A stretch of DNA of 17,516 nt from Bacteroidia bacterium (GTDB lineage Bacteria; Bacteroidota; Bacteroidia; NS11-12g; UBA9320): assembly GCA_022425465.1 (NCBI GenBank), contig JAKMFK010000117.1, positions 1 to 17,516 on the forward strand, in the 5' to 3' direction. A program made the translations under genes and the position numbers. The notes under the pieces were generated by a model. That model was not told where the DNA came from and made no database searches. It saw only the letters and a program-made list of their open reading frames with translations. Shown in pieces: positions 1,925-14,600 of this stretch. Within the stretch, counting starts at the first letter, position 1, and the number at the start of each line of letters is the position of its first letter.

Positions 1925-3949
1925 ATGAATTATAAAAAACACATCAAACCCAACAAGATATTGCTTTATCTATCATTGCTATTTTGCATTTTGCTTAATG
2001 CTTGTGATAATACTCATAATCAAAAGATAATTGAGGCCTCAGATTATTATTCATCTTCAAAACCATGCACACGATGGTGGTGGTTTGCAACTGAAATAAA
2101 AAAAACAGACGTAAAACACCAATTAGATTGGGCAAAAAAAAACCATTTTGGTGGAGTAGAAATTGCTTGGGTATACCCACTCTATCGTTATCAAAAGATG
2201 TATGCTCGTGCTTATGGAAGACAATACCCCAAAGACAGCACAGCCCAAGAATGGCTTGGTGAAGAATGGACAGAAATAGTTAGTTACACAAAAAAATACG
2301 CCGATTCTATCGGTCTATCCTGTGACTTTACTTTTGGAAGTGCATGGCCAGTTGCAGACAAACACATCAGTAAAAAAAATAGAACTAAAATATTTGGAGA
2401 TTCGTCATTTCAACAACTTCTCACATTCTCATGGGCATGGCCAGATACCATGTTTGTGATTGACCATCTAAAACAAGCAGCCTTTGAAGAGTTTGCAAGT
2501 CCCTTTATACAAGCAATTAGCCCCGCTCTCGTTGGATCTAAATCAGCCCTATTCACAGATTCTTGGGAAATTAAACTCAATTCCACTAACAAAATCTGGA
2601 CTGATGGTTTTGATTCGACATTCAATGAACGTTTTGGATATGATATTATACCATACATGAATCAAGGCATAGACTCATTCCCTGAAGTTCGCTATGATTA
2701 TATGATGCATCTAGACGAATATGTCACCCAAGGATTTTATAAACCTTATGTAGAGAAATGCAAGGAACTTGGTGCATGGTCTCGCGTTCAATGCTTGGCA
2801 TCTCCAACTGATGTGATGACCACTTATTCATTAGTAGATATACCAGAAACCGAGAGCATGCTTAATAATCCAAATTACTCTCGCATTGTAAGTTCATCTG
2901 CCTGCTTGTCAAGTAAACGTCTAGTATCTAGTGAAACATTTACTTGTATGTATGGGTTTCCTCATACCTACCTGCACAAAGAACAAACTGCTGACCTTAA
3001 AATGGTTGCAGATGCTATGTTTGCTCATGGTGTTAATCATCATGTATACCATGGCATGCCCTATAATCCTATTGGGTCTGATACCAACACCTTTTTTGCA
3101 ACAACCTACTTTGGTCCCAATGGCAGTCTAAGTGATGAACTACCCATGTTTAATTCGTACATAGAGTGCGTGTCCAACTATCTTCAAATTGGTAAGACTT
3201 ATAGTGATATTGCGGTTTATATACCACATGAAGACGGTATTATGAAGGGAGCATACCCACCAGAAAGACAAAGAGTATGGGTATGGGGTGAATATGAACT
3301 ACGATATATAGAACCTCCAAAAGAATTAGAAGGCTACCATCCCCTGTGGATTAATAAACACTTCCTTGAAAAAGCTAATTTTAAGGACGGAAAACTAATT
3401 GTAGGTGATGCTTCATTTTCAATGCTCTATATTGATGTGAAATATATGGATAGTCAAGCAGTAGATCGAATACTAGAATTAGCAAAAAGTGGATTGCCAA
3501 TTTGTATCAAAAATACCCCAATCGAGCCTAGCAAAGTTAAAAATAGTTATTATGGAGAAAGACTTAGGGAACTAATGTCTCTTCCTAATGTAAAACAACA
3601 ATTTAACGAAATTAAGAACTCCAAACCCCTATTAGAAGCAGACAGTTTGCCAAACTATTGGTGTAAAGTTGATCAAGATGGAAACGCATACTTATTTCTG
3701 GCACAATGGAAATCAAAAAATCTTACCTACCCCATATATTCTGGTCAATCGTATTCAAATGTAAATTTATCTATGCCACTAACTATCAATTATAATGGTA
3801 ACAGGAGTGAAATTGATATTTTATTCAAGCCTTATCAATCGATCATTATAAAAATAACACCATCCGGAGAAACTGAACTATTAGATATTTCATTCAACCC
3901 AAAGCACCCGATTATTAGACCCAGAGAAAAACAACGAACCTATTTTTAA
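1925..3949 (+). CDS. GH106-like alpha-L-rhamnosidase lipoprotein, compact form
   Basis: A 674-residue lipoprotein with lipobox LLNAC (cysteine 27), so probably anchored to the outer or inner membrane. The family is recognised from RWWWFATEI (50-58), GGVEI (76-80), FGSAWPV (137-143), TDSWE (211-215), FNERFGYD (233-240), the long region 257-310 with KPYVEKCKELG, and SSETFT (335-340) followed by DLKMVADAMFAHGVNHHVYHG. In GH106 enzymes these segments build the catalytic barrel, and E215 and E337 are the plausible acidic catalytic candidates. GH106 enzymes release alpha-L-rhamnose from pectic and other rhamnose-bearing glycans. Typical members are about 900 to 1,100 residues. This one lacks the C-terminal carbohydrate-binding beta-sandwich and has a shortened region between 143 and 205, so its substrate may be small or atypical. 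It sits 11 bases after the lipoprotein gene and 8 bases before the PLP enzyme, so the three are probably cotranscribed. Confidence 0.82.
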   Translation: MNYKKHIKPNKILLYLSLLFCILLNACDNTHNQKIIEASDYYSSSKPCTRWWWFATEIKKTDVKHQLDWAKKNHFGGVEIAWVYPLYRYQKMYARAYGRQYPKDSTAQEWLGEEWTEIVSYTKKYADSIGLSCDFTFGSAWPVADKHISKKNRTKIFGDSSFQQLLTFSWAWPDTMFVIDHLKQAAFEEFASPFIQAISPALVGSKSALFTDSWEIKLNSTNKIWTDGFDSTFNERFGYDIIPYMNQGIDSFPEVRYDYMMHLDEYVTQGFYKPYVEKCKELGAWSRVQCLASPTDVMTTYSLVDIPETESMLNNPNYSRIVSSSACLSSKRLVSSETFTCMYGFPHTYLHKEQTADLKMVADAMFAHGVNHHVYHGMPYNPIGSDTNTFFATTYFGPNGSLSDELPMFNSYIECVSNYLQIGKTYSDIAVYIPHEDGIMKGAYPPERQRVWVWGEYELRYIEPPKELEGYHPLWINKHFLEKANFKDGKLIVGDASFSMLYIDVKYMDSQAVDRILELAKSGLPICIKNTPIEPSKVKNSYYGERLRELMSLPNVKQQFNEIKNSKPLLEADSLPNYWCKVDQDGNAYLFLAQWKSKNLTYPIYSGQSYSNVNLSMPLTINYNGNRSEIDILFKPYQSIIIKITPSGETELLDISFNPKHPIIRPREKQRTYF

Positions 3950-3957
3950 TCACCCTA

Positions 3958-5253
3958 ATGAATAAACAAAGCAGAAGATATTTTATAAAAGATAAACTTT
4001 GGAAAGGATTTCTTTTAACCTTTTTTAGTCCATTTTCATCAATGGCTAAAATGGACCATTTATCCCATGAAAAAATAGATGTACTAAATGCTGATGGAGA
4101 ATCTATAGATTGGAAAAAGGTAAAAAAGCAATTTACGTTAACAACTTCACGAAAACACTTTAATACTGCCAGTATTGGACCATCACCCCTAAAAGTTCAA
4201 GAAACAACCATAGCCACCATTCATCGTATTAATAAACATGCTATTGAAGATCATAAGGTTGTAGAACAAACAAGAATTCAACTTGCAAAATTCATTAATG
4301 CAAATCCAGAACAACTAGCTCTTACAAGGAATGCTACTGAGGGCATGAATAACATTGCTCGTAGCATAGAACTCAAACGAGGTGATGAGGTTATCATAAC
4401 AAGCGAAGAACATATTGGAGGATCAGCTCCATGGATAACACTCCAAAATGAAATTGGAATAAAAGTGATTGTTATTGACATTCTAGGAAAAGAAAACAAG
4501 GCAATAGATTTAATTAAGTCATCCATAACAAACCAAACTAAAGTTATATCTATATCACACATTACCTGTACTACAGGTGCTATACTGCCCATTAAAAGAA
4601 TAATTAAATTATGTAAAAAACACCAAATCCAATCTGTAATCGATGGTACACAGGCATTAGGTCAAATTTCGGTAAATCTTAAACAGCTTCAACCTGATTT
4701 CTATATAGCAAGCTGCCACAAATGGCTTTTTGGACCCAAAGGAACTGGTATTCTATACCTAAATCAGGAATTCTTGAACAATACCCCACCACTTTTTGCT
4801 GGAGCATATACTGACCAAAAATTCAACCTCAAGAAAGGAATATATGAGTATAAAAGCCATGCTAGTAGGTATGAGTATGGAACTATTAATGCTCCCATAT
4901 TATCTGGAGTTGGTGCGTCAGTAGATTTTATAGATCAAATTGGAATTCATCACATTGAAAATAGAGGCAGACAATTGGCTCAAAGATTTCGAAAAAAAAT
5001 TGCTCAAAATAAGAACATAACAATCCTTACCCCTTAAAAATTAGATGAACATGCCTCAATGGTTTCATTTCAGATTAACAATAGGAACAGTTCGAGTGTA
5101 TGCAATGATTTAAGAAAAAAATCAAATACCATTTTAAGGTCTGTTACAGAAAATAATATGAATGCAATAAGAGCTTCTTTTGCAATTTATACTGATGAAC
5201 AAGAGGTAGATGTATTGGCAAGGAAAATTTGTGAGTTTGCTAATCTGGGTTAA
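3958..5253 (+). pseudogene. Tat-exported class V aminotransferase-fold PLP enzyme, interrupted by one in-frame TAA
   Basis: Codons 1-359 encode most of a fold-type I PLP enzyme of the class V aminotransferase/isopenicillin N epimerase-like family. Visible landmarks are FNTASIGPSP (68-77), TRNATEGMN (123-131), EEHIGGSAPW (150-159), SHITCTTGAILPI (200-212), VIDGTQALGQ (227-236, D229 pairs with the PLP nitrogen) and SCHKWLFGPKGTG (252-264, K255 is the Schiff-base lysine). A TAA at 5035-5037 follows TILTP. The same frame then continues without a shift for 71 more codons to TAA 5251, starting KLDEHASMVSFQI. In relatives the corresponding segment reads TP, a few residues, then a V-S-F strand, so this is the C-terminal domain cut off by one nonsense codon. 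The N-terminus SRRYFIK followed by a hydrophobic run is a twin-arginine signal, suggesting export of the folded cofactor enzyme. PvdN of Pseudomonas is a known periplasmic PLP enzyme. The broken form lacks the small-domain end and is probably inactive, unless the stop is a sequencing error. Confidence 0.82.
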
Positions 5254-5304
5254 CAAATACACAGAAGAAGGTATAGCCTATTCTATTATTACCGTTTGAA
5301 AATG

Positions 5305-5312
5305 TAAATTTG
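5305..5312 (+). promoter_or_regulatory. Bacteroidota -7 promoter element (TAAATTTG) for the M23 peptidase gene
   Basis: The sequence TAAATTTG is a perfect TAnnTTTG match. Four bases (AGCA) separate it from GTG 5317, so transcription would begin at or next to the start codon. I see no TTG at the expected -33 distance. It supports GTG 5317 as the start. Confidence 0.55.
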
Positions 5313-5316
5313 AGCA

Positions 5317-6387
5317 GTGAAATTTAAGCTTCTTTTAATTTTCCCTTTTGTAGCAAACAGTTGTTTTGCACAATTGAAACTCGATTTCATAAGTTTTGAT
5401 TTCCTCAAAGCTAAATCAAACCAAATCATAGTCCTCAATGAACGTATTGATAGCTTAAACACCGTTATTAATAATGAAAGGGATAACCACAACCAGCTTA
5501 AATATGAGCTTAACTCAAGTTTAGAAACATTGAATCAAGAACTACTTGAGATAAAAAAAATCCTAAAAAATTATCAGGATTCGATTGAAGATTTAAATAA
5601 AACTCTTCAGGAAAAACTAAACCCTGCTATCAATTCTACAATAAAGGATGGTTTTATAGACTCCATGCCAGCAGACAAATGGTCTGAAATGGATGTATTT
5701 AAAGAAAATTGGTCAAATACGAACTTATTCCCGTACGTCTATTCAAAGAATAACAAAATTCCAAGTTCACTCAACATCCGTCTTTTTGAACAAGATACCG
5801 GTTTCGCTATTCCATTTAAAGGCAATGTTTTTTCCGGATTTGGTATGCGACGTGGACGAATGCATAAAGGCTTGGATATAAAACTTCAAAGACACGACAC
5901 TGTCAAAGCGTGTATGTCTGGTATTGTGCGATTTGCCAACTACAATAGCGGAGGGTTTGGCAATATTATCATAATTAGACATTTAAATGGTCTAGAAACA
6001 TACTATGCTCATCTTCAAAAAATGGTTGTTAAGCCCAATGATATTGTCCACGCAGGTGATTTTATTGGTACTGGTGGAACTACTGGTACCAAAAGAACTG
6101 GTCCACATCTTCATTTTGAATGTAGATGGAAAGACTACCCTCTGGATCCAAGATTATTTATTGACTATACAGATTTTGAATTAAAGTCCGATACATTACT
6201 TATTAACCCAAAAGTTCTGAGAGCCAAACCCACTCCAACTCGAAAGAAATATTATACGATCAAATCTGGTGATACATTATATGGATTAGCTATAAGGTAT
6301 AACACGAGTGTTTCTCTATTATGTCAACTCAATGGCCTAAGAAAAACCTCTACATTAAGAATCAATCAACGCATTAGAATCAAGTAA
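5317..6387 (+). CDS. Exported M23 metallopeptidase with coiled coil and C-terminal LysM domain
   Basis: A 356-residue protein acting on peptidoglycan cross-links or on another envelope target outside the inner membrane. Residues 1-19 are a signal peptide ending in CFA-Q. Residues 36-105 form a helical, coiled-coil-like segment with regular leucine/isoleucine spacing. The LytM/M23 domain spans about 160-285, with zinc ligands H183 and D187 in MHKGLDIK, H232 in YAHLQK, and H264/H266 in GPHLHFE; all are present, so it should be a catalytically competent endopeptidase. Residues 312-356 are one LysM peptidoglycan-binding domain (YYTIKSGDTLYGLA ... LCQLNGL ... LRINQRIRI). LysM at the C-terminal end with an N-terminal coiled coil is a common cell-separation architecture. 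The start is GTG 5317: no in-frame ATG exists before the signal peptide, and a perfect TAnnTTTG element lies 4 bases upstream. The gene stands alone, 63 bases after the broken PLP gene and 39 before the hydrolase. Confidence 0.92.
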   Translation: MKFKLLLIFPFVANSCFAQLKLDFISFDFLKAKSNQIIVLNERIDSLNTVINNERDNHNQLKYELNSSLETLNQELLEIKKILKNYQDSIEDLNKTLQEKLNPAINSTIKDGFIDSMPADKWSEMDVFKENWSNTNLFPYVYSKNNKIPSSLNIRLFEQDTGFAIPFKGNVFSGFGMRRGRMHKGLDIKLQRHDTVKACMSGIVRFANYNSGGFGNIIIIRHLNGLETYYAHLQKMVVKPNDIVHAGDFIGTGGTTGTKRTGPHLHFECRWKDYPLDPRLFIDYTDFELKSDTLLINPKVLRAKPTPTRKKYYTIKSGDTLYGLAIRYNTSVSLLCQLNGLRKTSTLRINQRIRIK

Positions 6388-6414
6388 AAAAGACACTCAT
6401 TTAAAAATGATTGA

Positions 6415-6422
6415 TATGTTTG
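6415..6422 (+). promoter_or_regulatory. Bacteroidota -7 promoter element (TATGTTTG) for the PETase-like hydrolase gene
   Basis: TATGTTTG matches TAnnTTTG exactly and is followed by four bases (TATC) and ATG 6427. This predicts a leaderless transcript and independence from the upstream M23 gene. No clear -33 TTG at the usual spacing. Confidence 0.55.
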
Positions 6423-6426
6423 TATC

Positions 6427-7539
6427 ATGAGATGTTTGGCTTTTGCGTCTGTTTGTGTAGTCTTATTGGTTCAAAATGTATTTGGTCAATGTGATACTGT
6501 AACTGTTGAAAATACCATTGTTTATAAACCCTTTGATTACGACTATCTTATTGAAGCTGATGGATTAAGGAATGGTCCAGAATATGATCAAGCTACACTC
6601 TATTACCCCAAGAATAATGATAATAATTTGAAACCAATAGTGTTAGTCCCAGGTCATTCAGCAACACAACAGTCTATTTCAGCATGGGCCAAATACCTAG
6701 CTTCAAGAGGATTTATTTGCATGACCATAGGAACAAATTCACTATGGGACTTCACAGATAAAAGAGCTGATGCATTATTAGATGGAATGGAAACTATTCG
6801 CCAGGAAAATAATCGTTCTAATTCTCCATTATATCAAAGAATAGATACTGATCAAATTGCTGTGGGTGGTTGGTCTATGGGAGGTGGAGGTGCTCAATTA
6901 GCAGCTAAAAAAGACAGTAAAATTAAAGCCATTCTTGCTATTGCACCATGGTTGAGATCGTCTACATTGTCTGAGTCTGACCTCGATCACAATACACCCT
7001 TATTAATCATTAGTGGTCAAATTGATCCAACTTCTCCACCACTATTACATGCTAACTTACATTACGATTACACCCCTAGTAGCACTTCAAAACTTCTTTT
7101 TGAAATAGAGTTAGGTGATCATTATACTCCATTATATCCTTCAACTGGAAGAGGTGACGTTGGTAATATTGCTTTTGCATGGTTTAAACTATTTTTGGAT
7201 GAAAACAAATGTTATTGCGACATGCTAAATTCTGGTTCCCTAGACCTAAATAACAAATCATCCAAATATGAAATAGCATTAAATTGCAAAACACTCAATA
7301 TTGATAAAACCTCCAAGTCTAGCTTTAACCTAAACGTTTATCCTGTTCCAGCCACTAATGAAATTAATGTTGAATTTCGTTCTTCAAAAAAGACTGATTA
7401 TAAAATCTATAATGTCTTTGGACAACAACTACAAAATGGAATAATTAAGCGTCATGATAAGATAAATATTGAATCATTATCTCATGGTATATATTACTTA
7501 AAGGTTGGTCAAACAACTATCCGGTTTATAAAAGAATAA
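6427..7539 (+). CDS. PETase/cutinase-like alpha/beta hydrolase with T9SS C-terminal sorting domain
   Basis: A 370-residue secreted hydrolase. Residues 1-20 are a signal peptide (ending VFG-Q). The catalytic domain (about 25-288) follows the bacterial polyesterase plan of Ideonella PETase and Thermobifida cutinases: TLYYPK, VPGHSATQQSI, SRGF, IGTNS, SPLYQRIDTDQIAVGGWSMGGGGA, IAPW, and the nucleophile, acid and base. Visible residues are S150 in GWSMGGGG, D200 in SGQID, H232 in LGDHYTP, W175 (matching the substrate-stacking tryptophan), M151 (backbone oxyanion), and H77 where PETase has Tyr87. A terminal Cys pair, C264 and C287, matches the conserved C-terminal disulfide; PETase's extra C203-C239 disulfide is absent. 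Residues 298-370 are a type A T9SS sorting domain (NVYPVPATNEINVEF, YNVFGQQLQNG, LSHGIYYLKV), so the enzyme is exported across the outer membrane to the surface. Family-level knowledge says it hydrolyses ester bonds of polyesters or lipids such as cutin-like material; activity on PET is untested inference. A TAnnTTTG element lies 4 bases before ATG 6427. Confidence 0.9.
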   Translation: MRCLAFASVCVVLLVQNVFGQCDTVTVENTIVYKPFDYDYLIEADGLRNGPEYDQATLYYPKNNDNNLKPIVLVPGHSATQQSISAWAKYLASRGFICMTIGTNSLWDFTDKRADALLDGMETIRQENNRSNSPLYQRIDTDQIAVGGWSMGGGGAQLAAKKDSKIKAILAIAPWLRSSTLSESDLDHNTPLLIISGQIDPTSPPLLHANLHYDYTPSSTSKLLFEIELGDHYTPLYPSTGRGDVGNIAFAWFKLFLDENKCYCDMLNSGSLDLNNKSSKYEIALNCKTLNIDKTSKSSFNLNVYPVPATNEINVEFRSSKKTDYKIYNVFGQQLQNGIIKRHDKINIESLSHGIYYLKVGQTTIRFIKE

Positions 7540-7560
7540 GATAACTATCCATCGAATATG

Positions 7561-7941
7561 TTAAGCAAAACATTCCTCACATTGTCCCAATAACAACATG
7601 TTGGCTTGATCTATTTGATGATTTGGTATTTTAGGAATCTGGACACTTACCGACAAGCATTCCACTTTACCACACTCATTACATTGAAAATGAGGGTGGA
7701 TATCCGAATGTTTATATGAGGTACAATCATTGCATTTAGCATACCATTTCAATCCATTCTTACCTAAAAATGTGTGCAACTTTCCTTCTTTCTCAAAACG
7801 TTCAAGAATTCGATATACCGTAGTTTTATTCATCGTATGCTTGTGCATTTGAACTAGCTCTATAACAGAGTAGGCATTATCCGTCTTTTCGAATACTTGC
7901 CAAACCAATTTAACTGATTGCGTTTGTCTGGATAAACTCAT
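7561..7941 (-). CDS. Fur-family metal-dependent transcriptional regulator
   Basis: A 126-residue protein, somewhat shorter than the usual 135-165. The N-terminal winged helix ends in the recognition segment MNKTTVYRILERFEKEGKLH (37-56), typical of Fur/Zur/PerR. The C-terminal domain carries the structural zinc site as CNECG (C87, C90) and CEEC (C121, C124) and a metal-sensing cluster around HSDIHPHFQC (H78, H82, H84). An additional CNDC pair (C70, C73) lies just before it, so a further or rearranged thiolate site is possible. The family represses genes for metal uptake or peroxide defence by binding palindromic operators. Whether this is an iron, zinc or peroxide regulator cannot be read from the sequence; no obvious metal transporter is next to it. 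It is transcribed toward the hydrolase gene (21-base gap between the two ends) and lies 80 bases downstream of the CotH gene, but has its own TAnnTTTG element 4 bases before its ATG. Confidence 0.9.
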   Translation of the reverse strand: MSLSRQTQSVKLVWQVFEKTDNAYSVIELVQMHKHTMNKTTVYRILERFEKEGKLHTFLGKNGLKWYAKCNDCTSYKHSDIHPHFQCNECGKVECLSVSVQIPKIPNHQIDQANMLLLGQCEECFA

Positions 7942-7945
7942 TATT

Positions 7946-7953
7946 CAAATTTA
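7946..7953 (-). promoter_or_regulatory. Bacteroidota -7 promoter element (TAAATTTG) for the Fur-family gene
   Basis: Read on the minus strand the bases are TAAATTTG, then AATA, then ATG 7941. It is the same octamer and the same 4-base spacing as at the M23 gene, so this is unlikely to be chance and argues that the regulator is transcribed separately from the CotH gene. Confidence 0.55.
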
Positions 7954-8021
7954 CTGGAACTTAATTGCATTTAATCTATTCAAAATTATACTGAATGTCT
8001 AAATATAAAAAATTGAAGACA

Positions 8022-11000
8022 TCAATACTTGACAAAATTTTTGACTGTCACCTCTCCCTCTTTCTCAATTGCTAAATGATACATACCATCATTCAAAAAA
8101 CGCACATCAATTTGTTTGACATTAGATGAAGAATATACCAATTGTCCAATATTAGAATAAATTTTAGTATTAAATACTCCTCTTATTCCATCTATCGTCA
8201 AAATACTTCGAACTGGATTCGGATACAACGTAACTTTATCAAGTATGGAAGATTGCAATTCGTTAATTGCACTAGGACTACCATATGAATTTATGCAACT
8301 CCAACTTTCAGGCAGTAAATTATCAAGATCTGATGAGATAAGTTCCAAGGTTTTGCCTCTCTTATCCGCACAAGTTGGCCAGGGTGATTCCGACTGATAT
8401 CCAACCTGGTCATGAAGAAGGTTATTTTCGTTATATAATCGAACAGAATCTGTCCGCCCAAAACCAAAACCAAGTTCTCCAATGTAATTAGTAATTTCTG
8501 GGAATTGGGAAGAAAATCTAGCTGAATCTTTTACGAACACGAGATAACCATCCGCCTCGATTGAAGTACCTGATGGAATTGAGAAAATATGAGCATCATT
8601 AGCATCTTTAATAGTCCAACCAGACAAATCTATATATGAATCATTTGGATTATACAACTCGATCCAGTCATCCGTGTCAAAACTTTCTTTGGATCTGTAG
8701 TTTATCTCATTAATAACTAAAGGATTCACCAAAGATTCCGCAGGTTTAAAGTTAGGTGTGATTTCAAAGGCATCTTCCAAACTTATTTCAACAATCTCAT
8801 CAGTAGACGATAAATCACCACTCCAATGAGAGAACTCATACCCTTGTCTTGCAATAGCCTTTAACTGTATGGGAACAGTCTCAAAATAATCTCCAGTCCA
8901 TGAATCTTCTTGAATATTGAGATTATCATTTACATTCACAAAACCCTCAGAAACATCATAGTTAATAATGGTTATGGGATGAAAGCTAGGTAGATTAAAC
9001 TCAGACAAAATATGATTTTTCACAACAGGGTGACGTTTCACAGCAAAACTTCGCATCTCATTGATAAAAAAATTAATCCAGGCATCAATGTCATCAATAC
9101 TGATATTGTAATAAGACAGCGAGGGATCTGTTCTCCAACGCTCATAATGAGCAGTCATCTCAGGCAAAATAGAACTATAAATTTTATTAATATGTGCAAT
9201 TACATTAGCTGGAAGAAAGCGTGTATTCAACTCATCTGCATAACGATTTATAAATTGATTTCTAAACCCAATGTTTCTAGTTAATCTTCTAAAAAGAAGT
9301 GTTGACCAAGATGGATTAGGCCATGCTGGTCCACTTGGTTCAAGTGCAAAACTTAGGGTATTATTATTGGAACTGTTTAAATCCCACCATGGCCCAAAAC
9401 CAAAATCGGTATCATACATAATCCATCGCCACTTCCCTTCTGAATGTTTCCAATATTTGATATTATTACCAGGCCAATCTGTATTGTTAAAAAATATATT
9501 AGCTGCTTTATACAAAGCATATTCCTTTAAATCAACCCGTTGTTTTACATATTCAAAATTTGAATTAATTGATAAATCAGTTGTACGAACATAATTCATC
9601 AATGCTACATATTCTTCATTATCACCTTCTACTACCTCTGCGTTATTGGTCAGTATTGTGATTTGATCTGCATTAACGTTGTGTTTGGCAGCCAACATGT
9701 GCTCATTTATCTTCTCTCTTAGGTTGTACATTCCCCAATATTGCCCGTTGATGTATGTCGCAACTGGATTGTGCTCAGAAAAGTCCAAACCCGAACCACG
9801 CATCAAACTTGTTAGGGTAATGTCTTTCATAGATGTACGCAACCAATCTTGCCCAGAATTTCGAATGACTAGTGCTTCGAAATCGTCGTATCGCAATTGA
9901 TCAAAAAAGGAATGTTCGAACTTTGAATCACCATACTGACCTCTAGCAAACAAAGACATGGAACGTTGACCATTTTGCCCCCTACTCCAACCACCAAATA
10001 TTTTAACCCCCGCATTAAAACTCACAGAAGTATCTTCTCCTTTTTCATGAAAAGAAAAATGAATGGGTCGTTCCCAATCTTCCCAAAAATTAGCACCAAA
10101 AAAGGGTATGTTTTGATCAAAAGTTCCTTCCGGCCCAAACACATAAATACCCGTATCTTGATGAAAAAAATCATCAGGTTCCACTGTCAACAACATCACA
10201 TCTATTTCATGATTTTTAGATAATATATAGGATTCCGAATAAATTGGGGAGGGAATTTTATTTTCCGAGTAGATTCTTGCTCTTATACTGGTATTTGAAC
10301 TAATACTAATTGCATTTGTGTATTCAGGTGATGATTTAGTAGGCTTGGCCCCTCCCAATTCATATCGAATAACTTCATCTGCTTGATTACCAGACAGAAC
10401 AAGATTAAATGGTCCTTCAACTAATCCCCCTTTTTGTGAAAAAACCACGTGGCTTGAAACTGAACCTACAAATTCATTAGAGGAATTTTGGTAACCCGGT
10501 GTAGTTTCAATAAACCTAACCAAATCATTAGAACTTCGAGAAACACCGATTGATGTATTAGGAGCCAAATTCTCTACAACTAATTGATCAACTAATACAC
10601 CCGTATTATCAAAAAGGCTTAATATTTCATAATCTGATGATATACTGAAATTGGTGTGGTAGTTTGATGATGAAAGGTTTAATACTGCTGGTGGAGTTAC
10701 ACCTGAGTTGTTAGGTGAAGTAAAAATTGCCGACAAAAATGGTATAATCGTAAAATCTGATGAATTGGATGACACATTATGTGCTTGAATAGCTATTACA
10801 TTTTCACCTTCATTTAAAATAGATGCAAAATCATCTATAGAAAACCGTTCGGGTATGCCTCCATTGTACATTTGTGCTTCATGATCTTGAATTGTTGTAG
10901 TTTGATATGATGGAGGGTTACCATTTATATTGGCTCGTGCTATCTCCACGCCATTAATATAGGCTACAAACCCATCATCATAATCAATATCAAGTATCAA

Positions 11001-11522
11001 AGAAGCCATATTTGATAAATTGTCTACTGTAAACTTCTTTCGAATGTACAATGAAGTACTACCCTGAGGTATAAGTGTAGCATCGTCACCATCATCATAA
11101 CCAAAACCAGATGGTCCCTCTGACCATGTTGCATCATTAAAACTCAAAGATTTCCATTCTGAATTCAGTTCGTTAGTGGGTACAAGATATTTAAAATTAT
11201 CCCCCTGATTTACTATGGTACGAGAATAGTTTATAGCCGATCTATCTTTTGAAGATGCCCATAACAATAAATATTCATTGCGATTGAGGGTAATGTCCGG
11301 AAATGTCCATTTATCATAATCATCAACATCATCGGTGAGTGTCCAATTGGCAATGGAAACTTCTTGATTTCCATAATTATTTAATTCAATCCAATCAGGA
11401 GAATCACCATCCTCATCAAAATATACTGAATTTGAAGAAACTACCTCATTAAAACGAATTGTCTGGGCATTTAAACTTAACAAAATGCATAGTGTAGATA
11501 GACACAAAAGACTTGACCTCAT
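8022..11522 (-). CDS. T9SS-secreted CotH-kinase-fold protein with lamin-tail, chitobiase-C and InlB-like domains
   Basis: A 1166-residue secreted protein. The order (residues from ATG 11522) is: signal peptide 1-20 ending LNAQ; first half of a lamin-tail domain 22-95 (NEVVSSN, DWIELNNY, YLLLWAS); a galactose-binding-like beta-sandwich about 115-268 (WKSLSFNDATWSEGPSGFGY, LYIRKKF, FVAYINGVEI, GENVIAIQAHN); second half of the lamin-tail domain about 287-348; a chitobiase C-terminal-like domain 365-437; the CotH-kinase domain about 440-830 with INGQYWGMYNLREKI (592-606), NTDWPGNN (680-687) and WRWIMYDTDFGFG (698-710), whose aspartates are the expected phosphotransfer and metal residues; an InlB-like repeat 850-927; a second lamin-tail domain 935-1090; and a T9SS type A sorting domain 1096-1166 (TLYPNPVRSILTI ... 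LNDGMYHLAI). CotH proteins phosphorylate other proteins in spore coats; the role of secreted Bacteroidota homologues is unknown. A TTG start at 11531 is possible, but ATG 11522 fits the signal peptide and the nearby -7 element. Confidence 0.88.
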   Translation of the reverse strand: MRSSLLCLSTLCILLSLNAQTIRFNEVVSSNSVYFDEDGDSPDWIELNNYGNQEVSIANWTLTDDVDDYDKWTFPDITLNRNEYLLLWASSKDRSAINYSRTIVNQGDNFKYLVPTNELNSEWKSLSFNDATWSEGPSGFGYDDGDDATLIPQGSTSLYIRKKFTVDNLSNMASLILDIDYDDGFVAYINGVEIARANINGNPPSYQTTTIQDHEAQMYNGGIPERFSIDDFASILNEGENVIAIQAHNVSSNSSDFTIIPFLSAIFTSPNNSGVTPPAVLNLSSSNYHTNFSISSDYEILSLFDNTGVLVDQLVVENLAPNTSIGVSRSSNDLVRFIETTPGYQNSSNEFVGSVSSHVVFSQKGGLVEGPFNLVLSGNQADEVIRYELGGAKPTKSSPEYTNAISISSNTSIRARIYSENKIPSPIYSESYILSKNHEIDVMLLTVEPDDFFHQDTGIYVFGPEGTFDQNIPFFGANFWEDWERPIHFSFHEKGEDTSVSFNAGVKIFGGWSRGQNGQRSMSLFARGQYGDSKFEHSFFDQLRYDDFEALVIRNSGQDWLRTSMKDITLTSLMRGSGLDFSEHNPVATYINGQYWGMYNLREKINEHMLAAKHNVNADQITILTNNAEVVEGDNEEYVALMNYVRTTDLSINSNFEYVKQRVDLKEYALYKAANIFFNNTDWPGNNIKYWKHSEGKWRWIMYDTDFGFGPWWDLNSSNNNTLSFALEPSGPAWPNPSWSTLLFRRLTRNIGFRNQFINRYADELNTRFLPANVIAHINKIYSSILPEMTAHYERWRTDPSLSYYNISIDDIDAWINFFINEMRSFAVKRHPVVKNHILSEFNLPSFHPITIINYDVSEGFVNVNDNLNIQEDSWTGDYFETVPIQLKAIARQGYEFSHWSGDLSSTDEIVEISLEDAFEITPNFKPAESLVNPLVINEINYRSKESFDTDDWIELYNPNDSYIDLSGWTIKDANDAHIFSIPSGTSIEADGYLVFVKDSARFSSQFPEITNYIGELGFGFGRTDSVRLYNENNLLHDQVGYQSESPWPTCADKRGKTLELISSDLDNLLPESWSCINSYGSPSAINELQSSILDKVTLYPNPVRSILTIDGIRGVFNTKIYSNIGQLVYSSSNVKQIDVRFLNDGMYHLAIEKEGEVTVKNFVKY

Positions 11523-11528
11523 ATAATT

Positions 11529-11536
11529 CAAAGGTA
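11529..11536 (-). promoter_or_regulatory. Bacteroidota -7 promoter element (TACCTTTG) for the CotH gene
   Basis: On the minus strand TACCTTTG is followed by six bases (AATTAT) and ATG 11522. The element overlaps the alternative TTG codon at 11531, which argues against TTG as the true start, since it would fall inside the promoter. Confidence 0.45.
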
Positions 11537-11652
11537 ATTAAATTCAATCATTTTTTAATTTACTACAAGCTTATTCAACATACTTCACTACCCTAATAAC
11601 TTCTAAATATGCTATTCTCTAATTTTTTAAAATATCTCCATTCATTTTTATA

Positions 11653-11660
11653 TATTTTTG
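11653..11660 (+). promoter_or_regulatory. Possible -7 promoter element (TATTTTTG) for the giant adhesin gene
   Basis: TATTTTTG matches TAnnTTTG and lies 10 bases before ATG 11671 (19 before the alternative ATG 11680). It is within a T-rich stretch, so a chance match is more likely than at the other sites. Confidence 0.35.
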
Positions 11661-11670
11661 TGGAACTGAG

Positions 11671-14600
11671 ATGCTTACAATGATAAATAGGTGGATAACT
11701 AGCATATTAATTCTATTGATTTCGATGTTCTCCTCATTGGCTCAATCCAAACTCAATATCAAAATCAACAATCCCTCACAAGTCGATTTATGCATTGAAT
11801 CAGATTATTTAGAAATTGAGGTCAGAAATACGACAACCTCCATTGTTTCTGGCATTGAGACTCAGGTTAATTTTCCGAAAGGAATCACTTATGCTACAGG
11901 TTCGCTAACAGGAACTGGGGTTAGTGAAAAAAACATAAGTAACTTATCTAACCCTGTATTTAGCTTATCTAACATTGGGATTGCTCAATCTCGTATCATT
12001 AAAATAAAAATGAATACATCATGCGATATCAGTTTGTTTTTGAACAATGGTGGTTTGGCTATTGTAAAAACAACAACCTTATACAGTGGTGGATCAGTTC
12101 AAACAAATGGAAATGTACTTAATATTAAACAACCCTCTCTGAGTATTCAAAACATAACAAATCAATTAAAAACGGCTGACTTAGGAGACTCATACACTCG
12201 AGAGATAACCATAAAAAATAGTGGTTTGGGCAAATTAAAGCAGCTTACTTTCAATCGATTTTACAACAACGGACAAAGATTAATATCATATAATGCCATA
12301 AGAACTGTAAAAAATGGTTTAAATACAATTTCTACACTCGACTCTAATGATTTTAAAACCATCGGCAACAAGGATATTTACTTTGATTATAACGAAACAT
12401 TTATTTTTATAGATAGCATTGAAGTTGTTGCTTGTAACAATCTAAATGCTACATATTCTTCCTCATGGGGGTGTGATAATTCAACTTGTAAAACAACACA
12501 AAAATCAGCAAATACCTCAATATCAAATAAACGACCAGAACTCGAATTCACTCCAACTTCCTCGACTACTTCGTGTTTGTCCGACAAATACGATCATGAT
12601 CAACAATTAGTTATATATAATAAAGGAAATGATACAGCAAGAGCAATTGATTTAGCCATTTTTCAATCTAGTGGTAATGGATACCGATCAACTATGATGT
12701 CTAAAATTTTAGATACTTCATTCACTATTAAATACCCCTCAACTGGTACCGCTAATAAAATTAAACCTTACGGTACATCATCTTCAAATACAAGTGGAGT
12801 CTATGCATGTCTAGGAACTAATGCGGTTGGTCAGGTATTTCTCAATCTCCAAAATATGGCTCCAGGAGATACTGTGATTTTAAAATGGAAAACTAAATCG
12901 TGTTGTCCGTCAATATGTAATACTGGGACGATTTACAACCAACGTTGGAAATTCAAGGCAACTTACAAGAATCAATGCAACACCCTAATCAACTATAACG
13001 AAAAGTATGGAAGTGTAGGGTCTTACCAATCATTTAGAGTGAGTAAACTGATACCTACAGATATTGTAGATGGCCAAACTAAACAACTTGAATTTACAGT
13101 GAATAATGGCTATCTCTTTTATCCTAGTATTAGATCACAATTGACCATACAATTAAAATTACCTAATACTATATCACACTCATTGTCAGCTAATGATATT
13201 CTATTTACACACCCGAATGGTACATCTTGGTCACCATCTAGTGTTGTTCAAAGTAATGATACGGTTTTTGCTAAATTCAATGGATCACCTAAGGTTACAT
13301 TACCTAGAAGTGAATTATTAATCAACATAAAAGGAAATTGTCAGAGTAATACTACAAATAGCTCACAAAATATCGCAATCAATATCTTATTTAATCCAGA
13401 TACAACATGCACCTCTGGATGTGATATACCCTTATATTGTACTAATGACAACATTAAAGTTCATTGCAAGAACTCATGTGCTGGAGGCCTTCACTTTAAA
13501 AATTTTGAAGCTAAGCGAATAAGTTATGGTTTGCCAGATAACGATAATGATGGGATTCCTGATGCAACTGGTGCTTTAGATCATTCCAAAATAAAACATA
13601 ATCGTATCATGTATGGCGACACGCTTTTAACTACATTTAGTGGCAAAGTAAACAACGCTGGTTCGATTACCAATTGGAGCTATGGAAAAGCAACTACCAC
13701 ACTCGATTATGGTCGATATTTGTCAGCTAAACAAGCAACACTATATGTTTATCGCAGTGGTGTACTTGCTGTAACCTGTAACCAGGTCCCTTACACGTTC
13801 ATTTCAACAGGAAATACTAAAACCTACACTTTTGATATTAGCCTTGGAAGCCTAAGTTCTGCTGGGTGTTTAATTTACCCCAGCTTCCGATACAATAACA
13901 GAGATAGCTTGGTATTAAAAGTTAAATATGTGGTTGATCAGAATATAAGTAATTCCTCAGTAGATTTGCAACTAAGCAATACCTTTTACCTCAGTTCAAC
14001 TGCAAACCCAAGTGCATCACAGAAATACTCTTGTGACGATTTTTCTGCACGATTAAGTTTATTAGGTTATTACTTTACCAATTATGGAACTAACAATTTA
14101 TCCAAAAATGGATGTTCGAGTTTCAATATATCCCAGAACTTTTATTTGAGTGTAGGGAGGTGTTGCACCAATTATGCTGGTGGAAACATTTTTCCATATG
14201 AGTACAGGAAATGGGCTAAATTAAAAGAAATAATTTTTAAAAAGCCACAAGGGTTTGATGTAACCAACGGAAGTTTTAGGCAATACCGAACTAGAGGTAC
14301 AGGTAGGTCAACCAGTCAATTTATTAGTTCAATTAGCCCTTATTCACAAACTTCAAATGAGGTAACGTACAGAACAGATTCTTTGTATGCTGATGTTGGG
14401 GGCACGATTCTTATAAGCGATGACGGGTTTCATGGAACCTACACAGCTAGTCTTTCGCCAAATTGCATAGCGTCAAATAAATCCCATGATTTTATTTATG
14501 GATTTGTATTTGAGAAGTTAGGTTATCTAGGATCGGGTGTAGATACTATAATGACAACTAACACAAGAGATATAGTCACATTCACCAGGCAAAACATGAA

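Follow-up and report, generated by a model that had tools for sequence, protein, structure and literature searches.

The 17,516-nucleotide stretch of DNA analysed here (the window) carries a gene for a PETase-like protein which, with a probability of about 0.8, belongs to the PET30-like polyesterase family and acts as an exported serine hydrolase of carboxylesters, cleaving esters and polyesters promiscuously. This reading is based on the protein family, the fold, the C-terminal tail, the active-site residues, a sortase of the type IX secretion system (T9SS) in the genome, and purifying selection on the parts of the gene that could be compared. The protein is a plausible polyester cutter, whose activity is predicted. 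Statements taken from the literature below refer to the excerpts of the papers that were consulted.

Protein architecture and export

The first-pass annotation of this DNA had read a complete polyesterase signature in the 370-residue reading frame, fused to a T9SS type A tag. The translation has every residue that it named at the expected number (Table 1), and the protein matches the Pfam PETase family PF12740 (E 2.5e-45, 155.4 bits against a curated cut-off of 28) and, in its C-terminal part, Por_Secre_tail PF18962 (E 1.5e-11, 44.8 bits, above the curated cut-off) and TIGR04183, the T9SS type A model (38.9 bits, cut-off 23), so that the tag is also confirmed. The PF12740 and tail matches are far beyond chance. 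The protein has a Ser-Asp-His triad within a GxSxG alpha/beta hydrolase fold, as expected of the polyesterase superfamily. The AlphaFold2 (AF2) model has a mean pLDDT of 88.1. PET30 is the best sequence match in the PDB, over residues 14-369 and thus including the tail, as well as the best fold match. The 50 listed of 1944 fold matches are PETases, cutinases, PET or polyester hydrolases, or entries titled only "hydrolase"; one of the 50 is a PET-hydrolysing lipase (PET2).

Table 1. Features of the PETase-like gene and of the segment that contains it (window coordinates)
Feature	Position	Strand	Basis
Variable segment (PETase gene, Fur-family gene, CotH-T9SS gene)	6387..11643	.	96 bp in its place in congener G018
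PETase-like alpha/beta hydrolase with T9SS type A tail, 370 aa	6427..7539	+	ORF (ATG at 6427, stop at 7539); PF12740 155 bits; PF18962 44.8 bits; AF2 pLDDT 88.1
Likely signal peptide, residues 1-20, cleavage probably before Q21	6427..6486	+	inferred
C22, proposed N-terminal disulfide, co-occurs with C262	6490..6492	+	alignment
Catalytic domain, residues 53-271	6583..7239	+	PF12740 match
H77, aromatic-clamp / oxyanion backbone position, equivalent to IsPETase Y87	6655..6657	+	ORF, alignment
S150, nucleophile (GWSMGGGG)	6874..6876	+	ORF, alignments
W175 (in APW) and the 5-residue-longer loop after it, residues 175-183	6949..6975	+	alignment
D200, acid	7024..7026	+	ORF, alignments
H232, base	7120..7122	+	ORF, alignments
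C262, proposed partner of C22	7210..7212	+	alignment
C264, partner of C287 (equivalent to PET30 crystal disulfide C262-C285)	7216..7218	+	alignment
C287, partner of C264	7285..7287	+	alignment
T9SS type A sorting domain, residues 304-366	7336..7524	+	PF18962 match

Residues 1-20 contain a hydrophobic stretch, and residues 2-18 are helical in the AF2 model, features from which, rather than from a prediction program, a signal peptide is likely. Q21 is kept in 78 of the 79 rows that have a residue there in an 83-row alignment, in which the window protein is joined by 82 homologs out of 120 listed (the best 120 of 695).

The source metagenome-assembled genome (MAG; 1.78 Mb, 87.8% complete) has 65 TIGR04183 matches, 64 of which are above the cut-off. 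The T9SS machinery was assessed by a search for the PorU sortase, which is found split over two contigs (983.8 bits, above the cut-off, and 220.2 bits, below it, for the N-terminal part). Export of the window protein by the T9SS is a well-founded prediction, since the genome contains both these 64 tails and PorU. The neighbouring CotH gene (8022-11531) also carries a T9SS tail. By analogy with the family, the protein would cross the inner membrane through Sec by means of its signal peptide, and the T9SS would then carry it over the outer membrane and remove the tail, so that the catalytic domain would act at the cell surface or in the medium.

Active site, clamp position and cysteines

S150, M151, D200 and H232 are invariant in the 83 rows, and W175 and W149 are each kept in 82. 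As in other members of the family, S150, activated by H232 and D200, would attack the carbonyls of esters, the oxyanion hole would be formed by the main-chain nitrogens of H77 and M151, and W175 would pack against the acyl part of the substrate.

Larger counts come from a 202-row set, in which all 120 listed homologs and the window protein are combined with 79 of 80 loci (the best 80 of 279), IsPETase and LCC; L072 (no ORF passing the filter) and L001, L085, L086 and L087 (duplicates or fragments) were left out. Position 77, in the context VPGHSA, is Tyr in 57, Phe in 22, His in 3 and Asp in 1 of the 83 rows, and Tyr in 120, Phe in 73, Trp in 4, His in 3, Asp in 1 and a gap in 1 of the 202. 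The three rows with this rare His are the window protein, P0001, which is 97% identical to it, and P0008, whose nearest tree neighbour, P0007, has Tyr; the tree requires at least two changes to or from His at this position. H77 (codon CAT) is also present in the sister genome G021, and this recurrence, with that in P0001, makes a sequencing error unlikely. Three gammaproteobacterial relatives (L079, L080, L081) have Trp at the equivalent position, and a longer segment after the catalytic His.

H77 had been proposed in the first reading to replace the oxyanion-hole tyrosine. It does align with Y87 of IsPETase, but according to the literature it is the backbone nitrogen of this residue that makes the hole, while its side chain forms half of the aromatic clamp; a loss of the oxyanion hole is therefore ruled out, and H77 should change substrate stacking rather than remove the hole. 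The published effects of removing the clamp aromatic conflict: the F63A variant of PHL7 retains 16% of its PET activity, and alanine at this position lowers the activity of IsPETase and LCC too according to the same source (PMC10076380), whereas a 3.1-fold gain for Y87A in IsPETase is cited in a review. Y87H does not occur among the top-ranked literature matches listed. The substitution thus predicts an activity that is altered, not abolished.

Regarding the cysteines, C264 and C287 are both present in 165 of the 202 rows and both absent in 33; C264 occurs alone in L009 and L014, whose ORFs both stop short, and C287 alone in IsPETase and LCC. The pair, which had been annotated as the terminal disulfide, aligns with the crystal disulfide C262-C285 of PET30, the one bridge reported for that enzyme (PMC8767016), once the 25-residue longer start of the Kaistella jeonii ORF (391 vs 366 aa) is subtracted. 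A further pair, C22 and C262, was overlooked in the first reading. Both are Cys in 191 of the 202 rows and both are absent in five (IsPETase, LCC and three gammaproteobacterial rows), while in the remaining six C262 is present and position 22 is a gap. From this co-occurrence we propose that C22-C262 is a second bridge, which would tie the N-terminus to the end of the domain. In three Roseivirga relatives (L006, L007, L008) the T9SS tail is absent and C264/C287 are lost, but C22/C262 are kept. The active-site disulfide C203-C239 of IsPETase is indeed missing, as had been noted: its positions are G197 and T234 in the window protein, and the bridge is missing in PET30 also.

Gene distribution and context

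The PETase-like gene is accessory. Among the matches listed, the catalytic core is found in three of the 19 genomes of the genus: the source genome (G000), G021 (97% identity over residues 1-86 and 92% over 198-370, split across two contigs) and G013, whose copy (61%) lies at the end of a contig; these genomes are 67 to 100% complete, so that some absences may be gaps. All 38 genomes searched gave a match (matches listed to about E 1.8e-4, including the best one per genome; 16 of the 38 are outside the class of at least 90% completeness and at most 5% contamination), but this count does not indicate wide occurrence, since outside G000, G013 and G021 the matches start at residue 216 or later and cover mostly the tail. 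The G013 copy, taken as L014, groups elsewhere in the clade in our tree, and the genus may therefore have received the gene twice.

In the congener G018 (contig L128), the aminotransferase and M23/LysM genes are followed directly by the giant PKD-protein gene. Window positions 3812-6386 align with L128 1-2564 (73.7%) and 11644-13045 with 2661-4062 (77.7%), and between these flanks there are 96 bp in L128 versus 5.26 kb in the window. Either the segment was gained in the lineage of the window or it was lost in G018. Compared with the G021 copy, the gene has a dN/dS of 0.21 for the 259 of its 370 codons that could be compared; it is 0.09 for codons 198-290 (4 nonsynonymous versus 11 synonymous changes) and 0.41 for the tail part, 291-370.

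No conserved neighbourhood emerged when 824 ORFs of at least 120 aa, taken from 79 loci and the window, were compared at E up to 1e-10: among eight window neighbours, only the aminotransferase has counterparts close to the relatives of the PETase-like gene, at 25-28% identity and in 3 of the 79 loci. The gene context names no substrate. There are no tRNA genes in the window. A GH28 gene (3-863, (-) strand) and a GH106 gene (1925-3949, (+) strand), likely a rhamnogalacturonan-degrading pair, are also found in G021; the intervening genes and the variable segment argue against a single functional unit of this pair with the PETase-like gene. The class V aminotransferase ORF (3958-5037, (+) strand) ends at 359 aa, compared to 431 aa in G021, and since the 5-kb alignment has no gaps, the difference is due to an in-frame stop in the window.

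Other observations concern the genes around these loci. In the sister genome (L116 976-2717), a MerC-domain gene and a CobW-type GTPase gene are located between the Fur-family and CotH genes, and both are missing from the window at 7991-8020; the Fur/MerC/CobW set suggests a zinc (Zur-like) locus. L121 and L122 (from G025 and G024) have a Fur-family gene 78% identical to that of the window and an adjoining CobW-like gene, with a MerC-like gene also in L121; their neighbour is a different gene, with an open frame of 496 aa, and the PETase core has no match in G025 and G024 among the matches listed. The sister contig L118 encodes a rhodopsin and a fusion of lycopene cyclase and beta-carotene dioxygenase (6167-6895 and 3817-5808), which is suggestive of a light-using Bacteroidota. 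Directly upstream of the PETase-like gene, L003 has a BD-FAE feruloyl-esterase-like gene (4199-5200, Pfam match), and homologs of it (blastp) lie upstream in L010 (5179-5703) and L056 (4953-5927). A putative DNA polymerase I gene, read by eye, is near the PETase-like gene in 13 of 79 loci (e.g. L003 1316-4162), which come from the PET27/PET30 clade and from Polaribacter of the long-loop clade.

Activity outlook and relation to known enzymes

Loci were taken for named enzymes by organism name (L012 for PET27, L047 for PET30, L019 for PET28 and L018 for PET29). Over residues 40-268, the window protein is 53.6% identical to PET27, 49.6% to PET30, 33.5% to IsPETase and 29.7% to LCC. The segment P174-P191 has 18 residues in 144 of the 202 rows, including the window protein, 13 in 47 rows, including PET27, PET30 and LCC, and 14, 16 or 17 in 11 rows (14 in IsPETase), counts which are not natural frequencies because the rows were chosen by likeness to the window protein. 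The window protein falls in a 75-row clade and the PET27-PET30 loci in a separate 46-row clade, both with an SH-aLRT of 99, in a quick tree of 148 of the 202 rows from which the clamp column and the W-loop were excluded, which was made without bootstraps or an AU test and in which the query branch is long. This rules out filing the protein with PET27 and PET30: by sequence, it belongs to a sister clade with a loop after W175 longer by five residues. In the main texts of the open-access papers searched, no tested member of the long-loop clade was found; terms for Bacteroidota are absent from the excerpted main text of PMC12455559 and appear in PMC9772341, as excerpted, in the reference list only. 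As for the type II marks of PMC10076380, the protein has a Trp before the catalytic Ser (W149), an extended strand 8-helix 5 loop, as long as in IsPETase and three residues longer than in LCC, and, at IsPETase position 238, where type IIa has F/Y and IIb has S, the IIa-like Y233. It is not a full type II PET hydrolase, because the second disulfide is missing.

The initial interpretation is partly supported: it holds for the family, the signature residues and the tail, but not for the role of H77, and it does not imply PET activity. On this last point, nine candidates were expressed in PMC8767016. PET27-PET30, from Aequorivita and Kaistella, all hydrolysed pNP esters, tributyrin, Impranil, PCL and BHET; only PET27 and PET30 cut PET foil. 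PET28 (A. viscosa) and PET29 (A. vladivostokensis) belong to the PET27 clade and share its F-M-W motif; they were inactive on the foil, although they cut PCL and BHET. Two others, PET53 (Aequorivita, F-M-W) and PET38 (Fluviicola), expressed poorly and showed no activity in the assays carried out, and PET57-PET59 acted on PCL only, or on PCL and Impranil. The suggestion that the window protein could be another PET hydrolase has the activity of PET27 and PET30 in its favour, but the signature residues do not settle PET activity, because kin of PET27 with the same motif differ on PET foil: over residues 40-268 the PET27 locus has 79.5% identity to the PET28 locus and 96.4% to the PET29 locus, and the window protein is, by identity, further from PET27 than either.

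That the enzyme releases TPA or MHET from PET film about as PET27 does is conceivable but doubtful. In its favour, PET30, the nearest solved relative, acts on PET, the window protein shares W175 with PET27 (Tyr in PET30), and its loop length and W149 are of type II; against this stand the inactivity of PET28 and PET29 on foil, H77, which breaks the Tyr/Phe clamp, the longer loop after W175, and the PF00848 search (ring-hydroxylating dioxygenase alpha subunit), which had no match in the 87.8% complete MAG, with a control positive in 4 of 14 genomes, so that nothing points to terephthalate utilisation. A role as a plant or algal cell-wall esterase in the degradation of rhamnogalacturonan is improbable: the GH28 and GH106 genes are on the contig and kept in the sister genome, but the aminotransferase and M23/LysM genes intervene, the eight window neighbours and 10 ORFs of the sister contig that were scanned include no SusC/SusD family, G018 lacks the segment 6387-11643 although it retains the left neighbours, and no GH neighbour recurs around the relatives in the 79 loci compared.

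We consider it just as improbable that the protein is an ordinary lipase or triglyceride esterase, whose likeness to polyesterases would be incidental; PET30 itself is annotated as a lipase and tributyrin is cut by all of PET27-PET30 (PMC8767016), but the best fold matches point to polyesterases and the superposition suggests a lidless, open cleft. Decay of a functionless gene, which would fit the accessory distribution and the premature stop in the adjoining aminotransferase, is very improbable, given the intact reading frame, the dN/dS of 0.21 and the conserved triad. For the promiscuous, exported polyesterase that we favour, the natural role would likely be to cleave esters in the environment, for instance natural polyesters or polymers that carry ester groups, with aliphatic polyesters and BHET as likely side substrates and PET film as a possible one, weak at best.

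We tentatively suggest, as a conjecture that is rather unlikely to hold, that the long-loop sister clade is a distinct functional group of secreted Bacteroidota polyesterases. In the lineage of the window protein, the H77/W175 clamp, to which W107 may contribute, would together with the larger loop adapt the cleft to some natural substrate and away from aromatic polyesters, the gene moving between species as an accessory surface trait. The natural substrate would then be, for example, marine aliphatic or hydroxycinnamoyl esters, rather than the aromatic polyesters of the Tyr/Phe-Trp clamp. With this protein, the sampling of T9SS-exported PETase-like enzymes reaches a clade with no tested member in the literature searched, and the gene is shown to be a variable accessory trait within one genus; the natural His at the clamp, with the longer loop, offers a ready test of the role of this position. 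The picture of how polyesterases work is unchanged.

Among known enzymes, PET30 (K. jeonii, PDB 7PZJ) shares with the window protein the fold, the triad, the T9SS tail, the disulfide equivalent to C264-C287, the absence of the active-site disulfide and the length of the loop after the catalytic His, but it has a Phe/Tyr clamp and a 13-residue P174-P191 segment, compared to His/Trp and 18 residues. PET27 (Aequorivita sp. CIP111184) has the Trp at 175, the T9SS tail and the cysteine pattern in common with it, and differs by Phe at position 77, a short W-loop, its separate clade and the 53.6% identity given above. IsPETase, of type IIb by the criteria of PMC10076380 (Trp before Ser, Ser at 238), shares the triad, the pairs W159/W149, M161/M151 and W185/W175, and an extended loop of equal length; the window protein has His for Tyr87, His for Ser214 and Tyr for Ser238, no C203-C239 disulfide and an added T9SS tail. 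The likeness to the type III PETases (HaloPETase1, dsPETase05, R75estA), which is by description and not by sequence, consists of a non-standard clamp residue and of five extra residues in the loop that follows the second clamp residue, but the window protein has GWSMG where His and Gln flank the Ser in R75estA, and Trp rather than Tyr at the second clamp place. Last, PET93 and PET94, the DLHs of Maribacter and Arenibacter, compared by description, are likewise secreted Bacteroidota hydrolases, active on PET, but they have 434 and 433 aa, no PorC tail and, as reported, a Y-M-W motif.
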